Under the pieces are notes generated by a model. It was not told where the DNA came from, did not search any database, and saw only the letters and a program-made list of their open reading frames with translations. Below are positions 1,477-27,162 of a stretch of 51,389 bases of DNA, in pieces. The position numbers and the translations under genes are program-made. The first letter of the stretch is position 1. Every line of letters starts with the position of its first letter. Origin of the DNA: Chthoniobacterales bacterium (lineage in GTDB: Bacteria; Verrucomicrobiota; Verrucomicrobiia; Chthoniobacterales; UBA10450); contig JACDGS010000031.1 in NCBI GenBank assembly GCA_013821455.1, positions 1 to 51,389 on the forward strand, read 5' to 3'.

Positions 1477-2517
1477 TTAGCGAGCGAGCGCGGCGTAGAA
1501 TTTTGCCAGCTGCTTTGCGACCGCCTCGAAACCGACGCGAGCGATTGCTTCCCGTTGGGAGTCGTTAACGATCTTCTGGTAAAACGTGTCGTCGCGCAGC
1601 AACTGGTTCGCCAACTCTTTCAACTCGCCTAACGAACGTCCGAAACCATTAGTATCCGGAAATCCCAGCCGGTCGATCGCGCCGTCGCCGCCCACGCAGG
1701 GCACGCGGCAAAGCAGCGCGTCGCCCGCGACCTGGCCCGGCACCGCACTCTTATCCAACTGCAGGACGAGGCGGTGGCGCGCGATCTCAGCTAGATAATC
1801 GCGATACGGCAGCCTTTTTTCCAAGGTCCGGAGTTTACCAGTGTCTCCGCCTAACGACTCCCAAAGCTTGCGCGCGCGCCGTGGTTTCTCGTCGAAAACA
1901 GTCGCAGGCCCACCTAATTGCAGCGCGAGGGAGAAGGCTGCGAAATGATGGCGCGAAGGCACGTCCCATTCGCGCGTGCCGATGAAAATTCCCGCGCGTT
2001 CCGGGAGCGGTCGCGAAAAATCCCAGAGCGCATCTGCGATGGGATAGGGAGTCGGAAAGAACGTCCCACCCGCGCACAACTGCGCTGTCTCGGACGTGGC
2101 CGCGAGGAAGCCATTAGCCGCTCCGGTAATTTCGCGGAAAAGCGCGGCGCGCTTCGGATCGGAAAGTTGTCGCGCGATCTGATGCAGGCCGGTCTCCTTC
2201 AGCGAAACCGCCGTCGTTAGGCCAGCACTTTGCAACTGCCGTAACGCTTCACGAGTCTCGTGAAAATCCCCGCGCAAAAGCAAAAGAACCGGCAGCCCTT
2301 CGGCGATGGCCGCTTTGGTTTCGCGATGAAACACCCCGCGCGTGCACGCGGCGTAGCCGTGGAAGTTAACCGGCGCGTGACCCTTATCGTTAGGCGAACC
2401 AGCGCCTGCCGAAAAATCCTCGTGCGGATCGCGCCCGCCCGGATTTAAAACGGTCAGGCGAAAGGAGCTGCCGGACTCGTTAGGGGGTTCCGCCGTCACT
2501 TCCGTCACTGAAGTCAA
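1477..2517 (-). CDS. Glycosyltransferase-like protein, function unknown
   Basis: A 346-aa soluble protein without a signal peptide. The C-terminal half (about residues 170-340) reads like a GT-B donor domain: FIGTREWDVPSRHH, a basic RRARKLWESLGG stretch, LPYRDYLAEIARHRLVLQLD and GDALLCRVPCVGGDGAIDRLGF, the last two resembling the site where such enzymes hold the donor. The N-terminal 60 residues are low in similarity to anything I recognise and contain two PNE/PND tripeptides encoded by the iterated 9-mer. The ATG at 2517 lies 38 bases inside the end of the upstream penicillin-binding protein gene, so the two are probably cotranscribed; a start further in is possible. Function stays open. Confidence 0.6.
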   Translation of the reverse strand: MTSVTEVTAEPPNESGSSFRLTVLNPGGRDPHEDFSAGAGSPNDKGHAPVNFHGYAACTRGVFHRETKAAIAEGLPVLLLLRGDFHETREALRQLQSAGLTTAVSLKETGLHQIARQLSDPKRAALFREITGAANGFLAATSETAQLCAGGTFFPTPYPIADALWDFSRPLPERAGIFIGTREWDVPSRHHFAAFSLALQLGGPATVFDEKPRRARKLWESLGGDTGKLRTLEKRLPYRDYLAEIARHRLVLQLDKSAVPGQVAGDALLCRVPCVGGDGAIDRLGFPDTNGFGRSLGELKELANQLLRDDTFYQKIVNDSQREAIARVGFEAVAKQLAKFYAALAR

Positions 2518-5029
2518 TCGTAGGCGGCGGCTCGGCCTGGAGGAGTGGCTCGCTGGCAGCGGGATCCATCGGGCGGACCGGCTCGGCGCGCCGAATTTCC
2601 ACCGGCTCCGGAGCCGCGGTCGCGACTGGGAGCGCGCGCTTGACCGGCTTGTCCGGATCGAAGGCGAGGTCAGGACCGGCGGAAGGCTTGGGCCGGAAAG
2701 TCGAGCCGACCGCGTTGTAGGGATCGTCCGCCGCGACCAGCGTCGGCGCTTTCATCTGCACCGGCGCGACGTCTTTCGTTTCGACGGCGAGCGCCGCGCG
2801 CGGCCACTGGCTTTCGTCAAATTGTTTGACCAGACGCGTGCGCACAGTGTCGCCGTGCACGTCGCAGGGATCGGTCGGCATCTGCTGGTCGGTCGCGAAC
2901 TCAAGATAACTGGTTCGATGTTTAACCAACTCACCGCTGGCCGAGCGCACGTTTTCGTAACACTTGTCGGTCGCGAGCAAACCGGCGGTCGCGCAAATCT
3001 CGACTTTGTGGAGCGAAGGCGGGATCGGGAAAGGCTGCGGCGGATGACTGGAGACAGAGGCGTTCATCACGTCCACCCACACGGGCAAGGCTAGCACACT
3101 ACCGAAAGCGCCCCGGTAAATTTTCTGCGGCTTATCGAAACCCGCCCAGACCACGCAGGTGATCGCGGAATCGTAGCCCGCAAAAAGCGCGTCGGTGAAA
3201 TCGTAGGCGGTGCCGGTTTTGCCGGCGGCGGGAAATTTCTTCAGTCCATATTTTTGGTAGGCCGCTTCGCCAGTTCCTTCGTGCAGCGCATCCGTTAGGC
3301 ATGAAGTCACCTCGTAGGCGATAGCCGGTTTCAGCGCGGCCGTGCGAGCTTTCGTGTCTTCCGCTTCCCAGACAGTGTGACCGTCCTTGTCCTCGATCCG
3401 GTCGAGAATATGGGGCGGAGACGGCCGCCAGCCCTCGTTAGGGAAAATCGTGTAGGCCAGCGCCAGCTCCGCAAGCGTGATCTCGCTGCTCCCGAGAAAA
3501 GTCGATGGATAAGGACGCAACTTCGTCTGCACGCCCGCAGTGCGGATCAACTGGGTGACGTTATCGAGACCGGCGGAAGTGCCGATGCGCACGGCCGAAC
3601 CGTTTTTCGATTTCGCCAGCGCCTGCCGCGCGGTGATCGGTCCTTCGTAGCGGTTGTCGTCGCGCTCCGGCCCCCATTCGCCGAGAATGCCGGTGGTGCC
3701 GCCAATCATGACGGTGCGATTATCGAGCGCCGAATCCTCCACGATCGAGCCGGGGAAAAATCCCTTCTCGAAAGCCGCCGCGTAAACAAATGGCGTCATC
3801 GCCGTGCCCGGCGGACGGCGCGCCTGCAACGCGCGATCGTACTCGTTCTGTTCGAAATCGCGCCCGCCCACGAGCGCGAGGATGCCGCCGGTTTTGTTAT
3901 CGAGCGCAATGACCGCACCCTGCAAATATTCCGGCGGCGACGGTGCGACCGTCTTTTCGTTAGGCGACTTGCCCGCGTGCGCGTCGCGCAGAAGCGCGGT
4001 GTATTGCGCGTAGGTCTGGTGGTCGTAACCGGGATGCCTCTCGGCCTCGTCGAGCTGCGCCCGGAGCGATTTCTCAGCCACGCTCTGCAGCTCTGAATCG
4101 ATCGTGGTGTGAATGCGGAAACCGTCGCTCATGGCGCGATCCCAGCCGACCGCGGCGATGACCTGCTGACGGATGTAATCGATCGCGTAATTCTGACCCC
4201 GCGCGTTTTGCCGGTTGCCGGTGAGCAGCTCTTCGTTCGAAGCTTTTTCGAGTTGCGCGGCATCGATGAAACCGAGCTCGTTCATCCGGGTCAGGACAAA
4301 GTTGCGTGCGTCGCGCGAAGCCGCGCGATCAGCCCAGGGCGAGAGTTTGTTAGGGCTTTTCACCAAACCCGAGAGTGTGGCGCATTCCGCCAATGTCATT
4401 TCACGCGCCTTTTTATCGAAATAACCGCGCGCGGCCGCTTCCGCGCCATAGAGTCCGCCGCCGAAATAAATCCGGTTCAGATACAGCTCCATGATTTTCT
4501 GCTTCGAGAAATTGTCCTCGATGCGACGGGCCACGAACATCTCGAGCAGCTTGCGGCGAAAGGTTTTTCCCTTGAGATCAAAACTGTTGCGCGCGAGCTG
4601 CTGCGTCACCGTGCTCGCGCCCTGACGCACATGGCCGGCGAGCGTGTTCTTGAAAGCCGCGCGGATGATCCCGAGCAAATCGTAGCCGTGATGCTGATAA
4701 AATTTGTTGTCCTCGGTCGCGACGATCGCATTCACCAGATTCGGAGGAATCTGGTCGTAGGGGACCGTCTCGCGATTCTCGACGTAGATCTGGCCGAAGA
4801 TTTTATTGTTGCGATCGACGATAACGCTGGCCGATTCCATCTGCTCGAGATGCGAGAGATCAAGGCTCGCGGCCTGTTGTTTCAGGGACTCGGCCAGAGG
4901 GAGGAAGGCGAGCAGAGCGACAACGAAAAGGATGAGAACAAGAACGAGCGGAAGGTAAAACCACGGGCGGGCGTACCAAGGGCGCACTGCGTAGGAGCGC
5001 TCGGTGGGCATGAAATAATCGACAGGCAT
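2480..5029 (-). CDS. Class A penicillin-binding protein (PBP1A-like) with altered SxxK motif
   Basis: Bifunctional-type peptidoglycan synthase, 849 aa, anchored by one N-terminal TM (about residues 22-47). The GT51 transglycosylase part has all usual motifs: EDNKFYQHHG with Glu106, GASTVTQQLARN, RRKLLEMFVARRIE and KQKIMELYLNRIYFGG. The transpeptidase part has SKN (474-476) and KTGT (604-607), but where the catalytic SxxK should be it reads GTAMTP, giving Thr409-Ala-Met-Thr412; both serine and lysine are missing. The codons are clean (complement of 3791-3808), so this is not an obvious frameshift. The protein should polymerise glycan but may not cross-link. A Pro/Ala-rich tail of about 110 residues follows. 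Its 3' end overlaps the next minus-strand gene. Confidence 0.9.
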   Translation of the reverse strand: MPVDYFMPTERSYAVRPWYARPWFYLPLVLVLILFVVALLAFLPLAESLKQQAASLDLSHLEQMESASVIVDRNNKIFGQIYVENRETVPYDQIPPNLVNAIVATEDNKFYQHHGYDLLGIIRAAFKNTLAGHVRQGASTVTQQLARNSFDLKGKTFRRKLLEMFVARRIEDNFSKQKIMELYLNRIYFGGGLYGAEAAARGYFDKKAREMTLAECATLSGLVKSPNKLSPWADRAASRDARNFVLTRMNELGFIDAAQLEKASNEELLTGNRQNARGQNYAIDYIRQQVIAAVGWDRAMSDGFRIHTTIDSELQSVAEKSLRAQLDEAERHPGYDHQTYAQYTALLRDAHAGKSPNEKTVAPSPPEYLQGAVIALDNKTGGILALVGGRDFEQNEYDRALQARRPPGTAMTPFVYAAAFEKGFFPGSIVEDSALDNRTVMIGGTTGILGEWGPERDDNRYEGPITARQALAKSKNGSAVRIGTSAGLDNVTQLIRTAGVQTKLRPYPSTFLGSSEITLAELALAYTIFPNEGWRPSPPHILDRIEDKDGHTVWEAEDTKARTAALKPAIAYEVTSCLTDALHEGTGEAAYQKYGLKKFPAAGKTGTAYDFTDALFAGYDSAITCVVWAGFDKPQKIYRGAFGSVLALPVWVDVMNASVSSHPPQPFPIPPSLHKVEICATAGLLATDKCYENVRSASGELVKHRTSYLEFATDQQMPTDPCDVHGDTVRTRLVKQFDESQWPRAALAVETKDVAPVQMKAPTLVAADDPYNAVGSTFRPKPSAGPDLAFDPDKPVKRALPVATAAPEPVEIRRAEPVRPMDPAASEPLLQAEPPPTIDFSDGSDGGTP

Positions 5030-5318: not shown

Positions 5319-5585
5319 TTATCCGGAAGGAGAAGTGGCTTTGGCCGCGCGAAGTCGAATGGGGCCGACGGCTTTCTCGATCTCGACGGGCGCGCCGCCT
5401 TGAAGGCATTCGAGCTCGCCTGCAGCGATCAACTTCGCGGCCTCACGCCGAATCGCAGGCATCAAGGGCCGCCAATCGTCCGCCAAATCACGCGCCACTT
5501 CCGATGGGCAAAAAGTCGCGGGAAACGCGCGGGAGTTCGACAAGGTCCGCAGCGTTTTCCTAATCTCGTTAGGCGACACCTTCAC
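5319..5585 (-). CDS. DUF3253 family protein
   Basis: Small cytoplasmic protein of 88 aa matching the DUF3253 pattern: FCPSEVARDL, then DDWRPLMPAIRREAAKL, then a basic strand ending GPIRLR. The fold is winged-helix-like in this family; the function is not established. GTG start at 5585 overlaps the TGA stop of the upstream TPR gene (GTGA), implying translational coupling. Residues 5-7 (Pro-Asn-Glu) are encoded by an iterated 9-mer at 5566. The stop lies in a short hairpin (AGCCACTT at 5313-5320 with AAGTGGCT at 5333-5340). The 289 bases that follow before the PBP gene (5030-5318) hold no convincing gene and may carry the PBP promoter. Confidence 0.8.
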   Translation of the reverse strand: MKVSPNEIRKTLRTLSNSRAFPATFCPSEVARDLADDWRPLMPAIRREAAKLIAAGELECLQGGAPVEIEKAVGPIRLRAAKATSPSG

Positions 5586-8500
5586 TTTTGCGCGACGGCG
5601 GAAAGACTGAGTTGATCGGTCAAATAGTTCTGCAAGTAACGCAGCGGATGCGCGGAACTAGCGGACGCGCGCGCCAGGAAGGTTTGCAAATGCCGGAGCG
5701 CGGCCGGTCGTGTGCGGATCGCAGCGAGCAGATCGCTTCGATATTCCGCCTGCTCCAGTTCCGCAAAAATATTCGCCAACCGCACCCCCGCTTCGGGCCG
5801 CAAATCCAGATGCGAAGAATCCTCCAACTGCGCGATCGTTAGGTCGAGGGCTTCGTCCCAATGCTGCGTGCGCCACGCGATCATGCCGCGAAAATTGCGC
5901 AGCTCCTCCGCATAACGGCCTTGGGGATACTCGCGGTCGTAGTCATCGAGCGCTGCAAGAACACGCTTCGGATCGAAGGCCTCGGCATGATAGGATTTCT
6001 GAACGGCCTCAAACAATTGATCTTTCGGGGAAGTGCCCGGAAGAGGGATGCCCACCTCGCAAATCACCGGCCGCGAAAGCCCCTGCACGCAGCGCGCGAT
6101 AACGAAGAGCGCCGCTTCGCGCTTCCGGCTCTTTGGATATTTTTGCAAAAAATCGCGGGCCATTTTTTCCATCCCGGCGTAGTCGCGCGAAACGACCGTC
6201 ACCTTCGCGCCATCCCCTTTTGGATCGACGATGTCGGTTTCCAATTCCGTCCGTTTCCGCGAGCGCAAACCAATCCGGCTAAACTCAAGGTAAGCGGCCA
6301 CCGGCTGCATCTTCGGATTCGCGAGCGCCCGATCGATTTCGGTGCGGACCGCGTCGTCGTTTTTCGCCGCGCCTTCTTCCGGCTCCGATCCGCTCCCACC
6401 GTTACTCTCCAGAATGGCGTAACGAATGCCGCAGTAAGTCGTCTGCATCTCCCGCGTGCTCGCTGGCTCGGAAGAAAACTGCCGGAGATCGTCGAGGAAA
6501 TTTAGCAGCGCCGCATCGTCGATCGAGTCCGCGCTTTTCCGCTCCGCTTCGTCGAGCGCGCGAACCTCGCGGGCGAACTCGTTAGGCGCATGGGTGCGCG
6601 CGAATTCAGGCAACGCCGCGATCCGGTCTGCGAACTCCTTTGCCGGACCACCGCGTCCATATTCGTTAGGCCTTTCGAAGGCCCCGAAATCCTGCCACGG
6701 ATAACCCATGAGATGAGCGTCGCGATCGTCGGAACTCAGATCGTAAGACCGATCCGCCAACGGCACCGCCGCCGGGAAATTCCAATAGGCCGCGAGCTTC
6801 GTGGCTTCCGCCGAAGCGGGACACTCCGCGCGCAACTTGTCGTAGATTTCGCGCGAGACCGCGCCGCCTTTGATTTCGCGCGCCAGCTCTTCCGCAAACT
6901 CCGAAGCGCGCGCAATCTTGGGCAGCGTCTCCAGGGCCTGCCAGCGGGTGCGCGCCGCCAGCGGTGTGCCGGGACGAGCGCGCGCCGCGGCCAGCCACCA
7001 TCGCGCCGCGTGCCGCAACTCATCACGACCAGATAACTCGTCATCGACATTCTTGAGATGCAGTGACCGGCCATTCGCCCGCCGCTCCGTCGCCGAAAGC
7101 ACTGCATAAGGCTGCACCATTTTCACCAGAGTATTCAGAGGCGTCTGCAATAACTGCCCGCGTGCCGCCGACCAGGCATCGCCCAGTTGCGCCATTGCTT
7201 CCGGCTGCCCCGGGCCGGCGACGAGAGCTTTACTCGTTAGGCTGGCAATCTTCTCCGCCAACAGGTTATAACGGTCGGGCGTCATGAATTTTCGCGCCTC
7301 CGCAAAATTCTCCTGCGCGAGATAGCGCTCGGCGATAATGGCATTTAGTTCTTCCCGATTCGTACTGTCGAGCCCGCCACGCAAAGCAGTCGCCAGCTCG
7401 AGCACGGGAGCGAAATTCAGCAGGGTATCGATCGCCTGTTGCAACTGAGTCAGATTCGCGCCGGTAATGTTTGGATATACCGCGCTCTCGCGCAGCGACC
7501 AACCCGTAAGGTCTTCCGGGAATTGATAAGCTGTCGTATAAGGCGAATTCTCTATCGCCGTGTCAGCCTCAGCGTCGTTCGTCGCCGTTACAGTCTTATC
7601 CTCGTTAGGCGGACAGAGACGAACGAATTCGATCAGTGCCTCTCCGGCCTGGTGGTTGTCCTGCAAGGCAAAAGCCAGCCGCAAACGCACTCCCGGAGTA
7701 ATCGGCGTTTTGGGAAAGCGATCAAGTAACTTCCGATAAGTCTCGATGGCCTCGGCTACTTTGCCCGCGCGCTGGAAAGCAACCGCTCGCACCAGAAGTA
7801 AGTCATCGCTCTTCTTTAGCTCAGCCGGCGCGAGGTTGGTTAGTTGCAGCGCCTGCTCCTGGTTGCCTTGCGCGCTGGCCGCCTGCGCGAGCAGCGCCAG
7901 ATAACGTGGCTGCCAGTCGCCTGACTTATAACTCTCTTTCTGCCGCACAACCTCCGCGGCGATGCGCGGCAGGATAGCGCGCCGCCACTTCTTTACCTCG
8001 GCCGGCTTATCAAAAGCTCCGTCATAGTTATTAGCTTCGACCGCACTGACGACGAGATAAGTGAAACCCATCGCAATGCGCGGATGGGCCGCGATGAGGG
8101 CAAAAGCCGCCTGACCTTCCGGTTTCGCCGCCACCTCGGCTAACGAGCGTTCGCACATAAAGATGGCCGACTTCAAAGTCTCGGGATGTCCGCGCGTTTC
8201 CGCCTGCGCGATATAAAGGTCGAGCGCACGCAGATAGTCTTTCGCGTCAAAGGAGAGCGCGCCGAGCCAGCCTAACGAGTCGGCGACGAAGCTGCCATGC
8301 GGATATCGCTTCAGATAGCTTTGGAAAAGTTCACCGGCCTCCTTCTGCGGCGGGCTCATGCCGGCGGGAGAAACCGCGAGATCATCCTGGTCCTCGACTC
8401 CTTCGCGTGACTTGGCAAAAGCACATCGCGCCTCCATGAAGAACGCTATCTCAGCCCGTGGGTGATTGGGGAATTCGTTCAGGACCTGCTCGAAATACTT

Positions 8501-9106
8501 GCGGCATTGCACACGATCGCCTGTCCGATATAAGGCGGCGCCGCAAAGATAAAGCCAGTGCGCGCGCAACGGCCCCGAAACACTAGCGGCGCGCTCTTCC
8601 AGGTTATACTCGTTAGGCGAGGAAGAAGGTGTTGGCGTTCCTTCTTCTCCCGCCGGGTGCGCCAAGAACAGTTCCTTGTGCACCACCCGCCACCGAATGT
8701 AGTCAGCGGCGGCGTTGCTATTCTTCGCGGAGCCGGTCAACACATCGCGCACGTCGTGCAGGAGGTTGCACCAATCTCCTTTGCTCGCGTAATGCTGCCG
8801 CGCTTGCGCGAGCAAAGCATCCACTTTCGGCACTAACTCTGCGGCGGAGCGCGTCCTTAGTTCCTCGGCGATCTTAAGGATGTCATGACTGAGATCGGAG
8901 GAATCTTGATCCGCCGGGTTTGCATTTGTCTCCAGAAAGATTTCTCCGAGGGATTTTCCGGGGAGAAAGTCGAGCGATTCACCAATAGTCAGCGCCGGCG
9001 CGTCGAGGTCGTCACCGCCCGTGGCGTAGAGAGACCACGGGAAAGAGAGCAAGCCCGCCGCGAAGACACTGGCGACCGTTATTCCTACTTGCCGAAGGGT
9101 TGCCAT
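5582..9106 (-). CDS. Large secreted TPR-repeat protein
   Basis: An 1174-aa protein with an N-terminal export signal (MATLRQVG, hydrophobic stretch to about residue 30). The rest is alpha-helical with many TPR-like units: ALYRTGDRVQCRKYFEQVLNEFPNHP near 215, ETYRKLLDRFPKTP near 455, MARDFLQKYPKSRKREAALF near 990 and LDDYDREYPQGRYAEELRNF near 1060. Such tol-pal/YbgF-style TPR arrays usually act as periplasmic scaffolds; no enzyme motif is visible. Its start lies 22 bases inside the DUF3142 gene and its stop overlaps the DUF3253 start, so it sits in the middle of a tight operon. Six iterated 9-mers lie within it, four read as PNE or PND. Precise role unknown. Confidence 0.8.
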   Translation of the reverse strand: MATLRQVGITVASVFAAGLLSFPWSLYATGGDDLDAPALTIGESLDFLPGKSLGEIFLETNANPADQDSSDLSHDILKIAEELRTRSAAELVPKVDALLAQARQHYASKGDWCNLLHDVRDVLTGSAKNSNAAADYIRWRVVHKELFLAHPAGEEGTPTPSSSPNEYNLEERAASVSGPLRAHWLYLCGAALYRTGDRVQCRKYFEQVLNEFPNHPRAEIAFFMEARCAFAKSREGVEDQDDLAVSPAGMSPPQKEAGELFQSYLKRYPHGSFVADSLGWLGALSFDAKDYLRALDLYIAQAETRGHPETLKSAIFMCERSLAEVAAKPEGQAAFALIAAHPRIAMGFTYLVVSAVEANNYDGAFDKPAEVKKWRRAILPRIAAEVVRQKESYKSGDWQPRYLALLAQAASAQGNQEQALQLTNLAPAELKKSDDLLLVRAVAFQRAGKVAEAIETYRKLLDRFPKTPITPGVRLRLAFALQDNHQAGEALIEFVRLCPPNEDKTVTATNDAEADTAIENSPYTTAYQFPEDLTGWSLRESAVYPNITGANLTQLQQAIDTLLNFAPVLELATALRGGLDSTNREELNAIIAERYLAQENFAEARKFMTPDRYNLLAEKIASLTSKALVAGPGQPEAMAQLGDAWSAARGQLLQTPLNTLVKMVQPYAVLSATERRANGRSLHLKNVDDELSGRDELRHAARWWLAAARARPGTPLAARTRWQALETLPKIARASEFAEELAREIKGGAVSREIYDKLRAECPASAEATKLAAYWNFPAAVPLADRSYDLSSDDRDAHLMGYPWQDFGAFERPNEYGRGGPAKEFADRIAALPEFARTHAPNEFAREVRALDEAERKSADSIDDAALLNFLDDLRQFSSEPASTREMQTTYCGIRYAILESNGGSGSEPEEGAAKNDDAVRTEIDRALANPKMQPVAAYLEFSRIGLRSRKRTELETDIVDPKGDGAKVTVVSRDYAGMEKMARDFLQKYPKSRKREAALFVIARCVQGLSRPVICEVGIPLPGTSPKDQLFEAVQKSYHAEAFDPKRVLAALDDYDREYPQGRYAEELRNFRGMIAWRTQHWDEALDLTIAQLEDSSHLDLRPEAGVRLANIFAELEQAEYRSDLLAAIRTRPAALRHLQTFLARASASSAHPLRYLQNYLTDQLSLSAVAQK

Positions 9107-26127: not shown

Positions 26128-27162
26128 CTAACGAATCCGCACGTGCACGCCCGGCAGCACTTTTTTTCCGAGATCGAGCGCGTCCCAATTTGAAAGCCGG
26201 ATGCAGCCGTGACTGGTCGTGCGGCCGATCGTTTCCGGCACTTCCGTGCCGTGAATGCCGCTGCCTTTGTGATTCAGCTCCATCCAAAGAATACCGACGG
26301 GATTGTTAGGCCCGGGTGGCAGGTTGAAAAAATTACCACTCCGCTCGTCATGGTGGAGCATCGCCTCGTCCCAGCGGAAAGTCGGCATCCAGGAAAAACC
26401 TCGCACGAACCAATCGCCGATCGGCGCCGGGAGCGTCTTCGATCCGGGCGTAATGGGATAGCTGCCGACGAGCTTCCCGTCCTGGCGCACTTCCAGAATC
26501 TTCTGCGCCACGGAAACGGAGATGGAATATTGTTCGTTAGGCGGCTTCTGCTTTTCCGTTTTGAGCTGGTTCGCTTTCTCGGCCGCTTCGGTCTGTGTTT
26601 TCAGGCCGATCGTTTCCTGCAGATCGAACGGCGTGGCCACATTTGGCACCTGCACGGAGTCGCCCGCCTTAGCTTTGGCCCAATCGTAGCCGGGATTTAT
26701 CTGCTTCAGAAAATCCTCACGCGCGTGAAACTTTTCGCCGGCCAGCTCAAGAAAACTTTCATAGGGCAAAGCCTCGAGCTTTGCCTGCGCCGCGTGTTTT
26801 TGCGGGACCGGGCCAACGAATTTCTCATCGTTAGGCGAAAGTGTGTAGCTGATCAGCGCTGGCTTTGCAGAGTCGATCGGCAAATCGAATTGCGCGGGCG
26901 GCTGCGCGCCGTGTCGAAGGCCGCTCTTCCCCTGCGCCTGCTCGTAACGAGTGAGCGCCTTGCCCATGAACTCGCCCCAGCGACCGTCGATCACGCCCGG
27001 TTTGAAAGCGGAGCCATCGAGGAAAATCTGCGCCCGCAGGATCTGTTCGTTAGGCGAAGGCGCCGGGCTCGGAGGCAGACCGTGCGCGACGGAACATCCC
27101 AAAAGCAAAACCAAACCGGCGCTGACCAGCACGCGCAGCCGGTTCTTCAAATGTGAAATCAC
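26128..27162 (-). CDS. L,D-transpeptidase (YkuD) lipoprotein
   Basis: A 344-aa lipoprotein that should form 3-3 peptidoglycan cross-links or attach proteins to the wall. Seen: lipobox LLLLGCS at residues 18-24, a PG_binding_1-like helix set (QIFLDGSAFKPGVIDGRWG), a LysM-like stretch (FLKQINPGYDWAKAKAGDSVQVP), and a YkuD catalytic domain from about 210 with GIHGTEVPETIG and SHGCIRLSN, Cys320 being the nucleophile. The TAG stop lies in an iterated 9-mer (26126). Four motif copies in or at the end of this gene encode SPNE, SPND, PPNE or the stop. Divergent from the OmpA-family gene, which is likely to act on the same cell wall. Confidence 0.93.
   Translation of the reverse strand: MISHLKNRLRVLVSAGLVLLLGCSVAHGLPPSPAPSPNEQILRAQIFLDGSAFKPGVIDGRWGEFMGKALTRYEQAQGKSGLRHGAQPPAQFDLPIDSAKPALISYTLSPNDEKFVGPVPQKHAAQAKLEALPYESFLELAGEKFHAREDFLKQINPGYDWAKAKAGDSVQVPNVATPFDLQETIGLKTQTEAAEKANQLKTEKQKPPNEQYSISVSVAQKILEVRQDGKLVGSYPITPGSKTLPAPIGDWFVRGFSWMPTFRWDEAMLHHDERSGNFFNLPPGPNNPVGILWMELNHKGSGIHGTEVPETIGRTTSHGCIRLSNWDALDLGKKVLPGVHVRIR

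Follow-up and report, generated by a model that had tools for sequence, protein, structure and literature searches.

A clade-wide subfamily of verrucomicrobial class A penicillin-binding proteins with a degenerate transpeptidase site and a candidate class B partner

The window analyzed here, a stretch of 51,389 nucleotides from a Chthoniobacterales bacterium (contig JACDGS010000031.1 of assembly GCA_013821455.1), carries on its reverse strand a gene for an 849-aa class A penicillin-binding protein (PBP) at positions 2480-5029 (-). The assignment comes from the open reading frame, the Pfam and NCBIfam matches and the predicted structure. The product reads ...QARRPPGTAMTPFVYAAAF... and consists, from the N-terminus, of a short cytoplasmic part, a membrane anchor, a GT51 domain, a degenerate transpeptidase domain and a proline-rich tail. 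The GT51 (Transgly) domain covers residues 76-249 (4283-4804, -; PF00912, 206.6 bits) and contains the catalytic residues E106 (4712-4714, -) and E163 (4541-4543, -). The transpeptidase fold, catalytically degenerate, covers residues 371-620 (3170-3919, -) and was recognized both by Pfam (PF00905, 74.1 bits against a cut-off of 22.1) and by matches in the PDB. The tail, from about residue 740 to 849 (2480-2812, -), is the least constrained part of those compared. The protein exceeds the NCBIfam cut-off for TIGR02074 (PBP_1a_fam; 526.5 versus 508.75 bits) and falls below that for the monofunctional transglycosylases, TIGR02070 (151.9 versus 182.65 bits). Its predicted structure has a pLDDT of 92.3 over residues 50-741 and matches class A PBPs in the PDB, for example 4oon with a Z score of 46.9 and an rmsd of 2.3 over 385 residues; the Z scores against PBP1a structures are 46-48.

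A class A PBP is defined as a bifunctional, penicillin-sensitive enzyme. The window PBP has the GT51 domain with both catalytic glutamates, the transpeptidase fold and the SxN and KTG motifs of this class, and lacks the catalytic Ser and Lys of SxxK. An earlier note on this DNA had claimed that GTAMTP stands in place of GSxxKP while the other motifs are intact, and this is indeed what we find. The replacement lies at residues 408-413 (3791-3808, -), with Thr409 at the position of the nucleophile and Thr412 at that of the Lys. SKN, the SxN motif, is at residues 474-476 (3602-3610, -), intact here and lost in many relatives, and KTGT is at residues 604-607 (3209-3220, -). Between SxxK and SxN is inserted GGTTGILGEWG, residues 443-453 (3671-3703, -), the signature of the subfamily described below. 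The window PBP is expected to be incapable of covalent penicillin binding and of D,D-transpeptidation.

Two neighboring genes deserve mention. A 346-aa open reading frame at 1477-2517 (-) overlaps the 3' end of the PBP gene; Pfam and NCBIfam searches returned no match for it. All 16 same-family loci examined have a homologue adjoining the PBP gene (L034 and L078 being one and the same protein), whereas the flanks examined at 19 loci from other families contain none. Just upstream of the PBP gene, at 5582-9106 (-), lies the gene for a 1174-aa TPR-repeat protein with YfiO- and YbgF-like matches.

Orthologues were then aligned, as the earlier note had suggested. Within the window's family, all 30 displayed sequences, the window protein and 29 orthologues, have Thr409, whereas K, T, L and Q all occur at the freely variable Lys position. 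Because the congeneric proteins L008 and L009 share both Thr residues, and because all 30 same-family sequences have Thr409, an assembly error is excluded, and with it the sequence error, to be revealed by resequencing, that the earlier note had named as a possible refutation. In other families of the window's order the Thr holds too, and the Ser of SxN is often Gly. The idea that Thr409 is an oddity of one species was rejected, as it recurs across families.

For the subfamily as a whole we aligned 120 distinct sequences from Verrucomicrobiota, using the inserted GGxxGxLGEWG loop as the marker. Duplicates (L077, L078, L171) and fragments (L054, L055, L057, L058, L059, L074, L275) were left out; the fragments that span the motif all read GTA. 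Residue 409 is Thr in 115 sequences and Ser in five. Residue 412 is Leu in 47, Thr in 33, Lys in 23, Phe in seven, Val in five and something else in five, so that the SxxK Lys is absent in 97 of the 120. The Ser position of SxN is occupied by Ser (90), Gly (29) or Ala (1), and its Asn position by Asn (81), Ile (32) or other residues (7). On the other hand, E106 and E163 of the GT51 domain are each present in 120/120, Gly606 in 120/120, Lys604 in 118/120, and Lys475 and Thr607 in 112/120 each. Ser and Lys are both gone in 96 sequences; Ser, Lys and an SxN residue are gone in 67. All catalytic residues are canonical in just four. Fourteen members found later, outside the 120, all have Thr409 and Gly453. 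As controls, Ser and Lys are both present in 70/70 non-subfamily loci of the scan of named genomes and in 26/26 verrucomicrobial paralogues. Judged from this alignment, the Thr trait is a property of the subfamily and not a peculiarity of the window protein.

The five Ser409 sequences, L081 and one genus of four (L233-L236; f6 g128), fall on two separate branches of the careful tree. The genus is nested among Thr members with support of 100/99, and three of its four sequences have all motifs. The Ser of this genus is an apparent reversal, and the old catalytic site may be recoverable. In 18 of the 115 Thr sequences, Lys, SxN and KTG are all intact, so a weak Thr-based activity is possible in those 18.

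A scan of 58 genomes of relatives gave matches in 55. In a profile search of 188 genomes of the class, the subfamily scored at least 854 bits and the next hits at most 695. When 384 genomes of the class were searched at the DNA level for GGxxGxLGEW, the pattern was found in 123, in families of the window's order and in f15, f35 and f69, and a reversed control pattern matched in two genomes; f66 and f71 also contain members, which the strict pattern missed. Named records with the subfamily include Spartobacteria, Verrucomicrobiales and an Akkermansia sp., and a protein from a g39 genome (L171) is identical to that of the Akkermansia sp. record (L085). The subfamily thus apparently extends to this gut bacterium. 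The same degenerate state is found in relatives spanning about two orders. The careful tree separates a Chthoniobacterales-side from a Verrucomicrobiales-side clade (100/99 and 99/96), and horizontal spread was rejected for this reason; what the tree shows, at the level of sequence, is vertical inheritance across Chthoniobacterales-type and Verrucomicrobiales/Akkermansia-type bacteria.

Among nine pairs of sequences, dN/dS ratios ranged from 0.06 to 0.13 for the transpeptidase domain, from 0.04 to 0.08 for GT51 and from 0.07 to 0.33 for the tail, values that place the degenerate domain under strong purifying selection. What is more, the degenerate domain is conserved nearly as well as that of the active paralogue: among 14 genomes the mean identities of the GT51 and transpeptidase domains were 0.564 and 0.506 for the subfamily and 0.595 and 0.549 for the paralogue. 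The intact 849-aa frame, the orthologues with the same residues and the dN/dS ratios well below 1 led us to reject a sequencing error or decaying pseudogene, the probability of which is negligible.

The inserted loop may hold a clue to what became of the old site. Thr409 pairs with Gly453 in all 115 cases and Ser409 with Ala453 in all five, and among 849 columns only 453 fully separates the two groups, although this covariation rests on two Ser lineages only. Since Thr with Gly against Ser with Ala is a volume-conserving swap, it suggests that the loop touches the position of the old nucleophile. Glu451 of the loop is invariant (120/120). The contact is deduced from covariation because neither predicted model fixes the loop, which has a pLDDT below 50 at residues 444-451 in the first and block means of 64 and 58 in the second.

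The source genome encodes three proteins with GT51, two of the SEDS type and 12 with a YkuD (L,D-transpeptidase) domain. The other five PF00905 proteins found in it, three class B-like, one PBP1A-type and one PBP1C-type, all keep SxxK, so that the window PBP is accompanied by another class A PBP whose motifs are intact; of 58 subfamily genomes, 54 gave a second PBP1A-type hit. A separate gene, in an mre-type cluster recognized by eye, encodes the anchored PBP2. The proposed partner in this genome is a class B protein of 611-631 aa, depending on the start (L002, G000:C102:77790-79622), that exceeds the PBP2/MrdA cut-off of TIGR03423 (468.3 versus 455 bits). Its gene lies by uvrC, on a different contig from the PBP gene. 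The N-termini of this stand-alone class B type, inspected by eye, resemble cleavable Sec signals, unlike that of the anchored mre-linked paralogue, and the type is apparently secreted without a membrane anchor. SxxK and KTG are intact in the sequences examined; one, L301, gave no KTGT match by pattern. In V. spinosum the three genes of COG0768 are each reported to be essential, and the third of them, VSP_RS08025, may by elimination be the unanchored type.

In other families of the class we found long frames of 1261-1428 aa. In the five scanned with Pfam (L284-L288, in G139, G134, G072, G205 and G180) a class A and a class B protein are fused, with, in this order, GT51, a degenerate class A transpeptidase domain, PBP_dimer and an intact class B transpeptidase domain; frames of similar length occur in G080, G104, G176, G073, G167, G210 and G061. 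At the nucleophile position of the degenerate domain, five of six fusions (L222 and L284-L288) carry Ala and the sixth carries Ser; none of the six retains the SxxK Lys, and all have Met instead of the KTG Lys. The C-terminal parts of the three fusions compared are nearest to L002 (332, 296 and 278 bits, the next best being 254, 218 and 188), and the fusion C-parts form one clade with the stand-alone class B type (97/99). The N-terminal parts form a clade of their own (100/100). In the tree, PBP1A types with intact motifs separate it from the LGEW clade (100/99). A single inactivation shared by the subfamily and the fusions was therefore rejected, although one loss followed by recovery is conceivable, and the class A site was probably lost twice, independently.

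A search of 63 genomes for the class B protein found the stand-alone type in 32/32 genomes with the subfamily (363-1400 bits), 25 of which were placed in the class B tree (G122 and G218 by the operon copies described below) and seven assigned by score. In 12/12 fusion genomes the best class B match lies within the long frame. Sixteen genomes have neither the subfamily nor a fusion; nine of these were placed in the tree, where eight best matches are other, anchored types and the ninth, in G094, is a stand-alone copy, and the other seven score 177-253 bits. Neither the subfamily nor the stand-alone type is present in G043 and G052, two reduced genomes of 0.9 Mb. There are two exceptions to the co-occurrence, G281, which has the class B type and no subfamily member, and G094, where the stand-alone class B gene adjoins a class A PBP with intact motifs; the co-occurrence itself contrasts largely one clade with the rest.

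Two genomes, G218 and G122, contain in addition second, divergent LGEW proteins (L225 and L228), the only two of the 120 without the KTG Lys. Each gene lies directly behind a second class B copy on the same strand, the two genes overlapping by 4 bases in G218 and being separated by 48 in G122 (loci L309, 492-5138, +, and L310, 445-4544, -), and the pairs are apparently operons. We selected these copies post hoc, because of the gene pairs. The two class B copies are sisters (100/99), as are the two LGEW copies (99, in a quick tree with long branches). In that tree L225 and L228 stand on long branches among the outgroup rows; they were included in the alignment through their LGEW motif and omitted from the careful trees.

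Taken together, these data allow us to propose how the subfamily protein functions. Anchored in the inner membrane, the GT51 protein would polymerize the glycan of peptidoglycan, while its transpeptidase domain would no longer carry out D,D-transpeptidation. The LGEWG loop may pack against residue 409 and so remodel the old active site, and the dead domain would serve as a non-catalytic platform. Cross-linking would then fall to another enzyme acting in trans. The likeliest is a second class B transpeptidase of PBP2-like type, with a Sec-type signal and no evident membrane anchor; L,D-transpeptidases possibly contribute. That the subfamily protein is a transpeptidase-dead polymerase we regard as very probable. 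The partnership with a class B enzyme we infer from the sequence data; whether the PBP2-like protein is the cross-linking partner is in our judgment evenly balanced, and a dead polymerase cross-linked in trans chiefly by a class B partner is the best explanation overall, which we hold to be somewhat probable. The proposal of a glycan polymerase with a scaffold fold in the earlier note stands up well, given the intact GT51, the purifying selection, the relatives in two orders and the second, intact class A PBP; its hint at the L,D-transpeptidase encoded in the window as the partner has fared less well. That YkuD domain (26134-26529, -) is one of 12 in the genome, and its gene lies about 21 kb from the PBP gene and is not adjacent.

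L,D-transpeptidases in general could nevertheless be the main cross-linkers of the strands made by a dead polymerase, through 3-3 links, a reading that we consider rather unlikely. YkuD proteins number 6-18 in 16 genomes with the subfamily and 1-6 in 14 genomes of the class without it, a comparison that is essentially of one clade against all others. Among the 16, the lowest counts (six and seven) belong to the two sampled genomes of the genus in which Ser is restored, and the reduced genomes G043 and G052 have one and none. The peptidoglycan of V. spinosum, a bacterium in which targeted mutagenesis is reported, contains glycine-ending tetrapeptides and tri-tetra dimers (PMC12283558), which fits L,D-transpeptidase activity without proving it, and there is a precedent in E. 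coli, where PBP1b Ser510Ala still supports polymerization with cross-linking by an L,D-transpeptidase (PMC5089857). The counts support the idea in a general way, cause and descent being inseparable in them. There are exceptions, however: in a class-wide survey that scored up to ten candidates per genome, at least 10 YkuD proteins each were counted for G180 (f39), where the subfamily gave no hit, and for G281, which has lost it. As YkuD is present in all but 10 of the 384 genomes of the class, its presence is unspecific, and no YkuD fusion or gene pair was noticed in unsystematic inspection. The class B fusions, the two operon-like pairs and the co-occurrence are more specific pointers, and they favor a class B partner over an L,D one.

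Two further alternatives concern the old active site itself. The domain could bind stem peptides through its KTG strand, sense them and regulate its own glycosyltransferase with no dedicated partner; this would account for a KTG strand that is retained while nucleophile, base and SxN decay, but it explains neither the fusions nor the paired genes of G218 and G122 nor the 32/32 co-occurrence, the coupling of Thr409 to Gly453 hints at a filled pocket, and we find it improbable. Alternatively, the site could have been rebuilt, with Thr409 as a nucleophile aided by Glu451 and Lys475/Lys604, as a penicillin-insensitive transpeptidase or for some other acyl transfer. The constancy of Thr409 in 115/115 non-Ser members while position 412 drifts, together with that of Glu451, Lys604 and Lys475, exceeds what is expected of a freely decaying site. 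On the other hand, the SxxK Lys has been replaced by Leu, Thr, Phe, Val and others, SxN is often lost, packing explains the 409/453 coupling equally well, and the two most degenerate copies adjoin an intact class B enzyme. A Thr nucleophile, already judged the less likely option in the earlier note, is in our view improbable too.

If a class B partner is involved, a more specific arrangement can tentatively be proposed, namely a split GT51 synthase in which a membrane-anchored GT51 protein offers its dead transpeptidase domain as a docking surface to a class B transpeptidase that is itself untethered. It might represent a third kind of peptidoglycan synthase, next to the bifunctional class A PBPs and the SEDS-class B pairs, and the sister families might hold both activities in one fused polypeptide with one dead and one live transpeptidase domain. 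The arrangement would resemble the SEDS-class B pairs (FtsW-FtsI, RodA-PBP2), where a separate polymerase and transpeptidase cooperate, but its polymerase is a GT51 enzyme and its candidate class B protein has no evident membrane anchor; the source genome has two SEDS proteins and the mre-linked PBP2 as well. With the PBP1A-type class A PBPs (TIGR02074; E. coli PBP1a/PBP1b, A. baumannii PBP1a 3ue1, P. aeruginosa-type 4oon), its best matches among solved structures, the subfamily protein shares GT51 and the transpeptidase fold; unlike them it lacks the Ser nucleophile and the SxxK Lys, has the inserted GGxxGxLGEWG loop and is expected not to bind penicillin covalently. The monofunctional glycosyltransferases (MgtA/Mgt, TIGR02070) polymerize glycan and do nothing else, as expected for the subfamily protein, but have no transpeptidase fold, whereas the subfamily keeps a constrained one.

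Engineered proteins have already established that polymerization can go on without transpeptidation, the cross-links being supplied in trans by an L,D or a class B enzyme. When the transpeptidase site of a class A PBP is mutated experimentally (E. coli PBP1b S510A, pneumococcal PBP2A), the protein polymerizes while another enzyme cross-links; in pneumococcus, class B PBPs cross-link in trans with a transpeptidase-inactive class A PBP (PMC4632607). The loss in the subfamily is in contrast natural, old and conserved across a large clade. In C. difficile, class A transpeptidase activity is reported to be required for growth and not for septation (PMC12539705). One survey groups Akkermansia with the organisms that have the classical system on the grounds that a class A PBP is present (PMC8406291). 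Our literature search, with most subscription papers outside its scope, found neither an account of a class A PBP that naturally lacks the catalytic Ser throughout a clade nor one of a fusion of GT51, a dead transpeptidase domain and a class B transpeptidase.

Surveys count class A PBPs as bifunctional and penicillin-sensitive, and here a large clade appears to keep one whose cross-linking site has very long been inactive. Its conserved dead domain makes a non-catalytic role of this fold a testable proposition, and the enzyme is predicted to be a moenomycin-sensitive, beta-lactam-indifferent polymerase in environmental and gut bacteria. The natural fusions and gene pairs provide material for learning how GT51 enzymes pass strands to separate cross-linkers.

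A third degenerate class A lineage perhaps exists. In G158 a second frame of L218, of about 530 aa (G158:C12:137371 onward), is class A PBP-like, reads GAAFEP in place of GSxxKP and lacks the KTG part. It adjoins an intact PBP1A, and frames of 468-618 aa occur at similar places in other f15 genomes.
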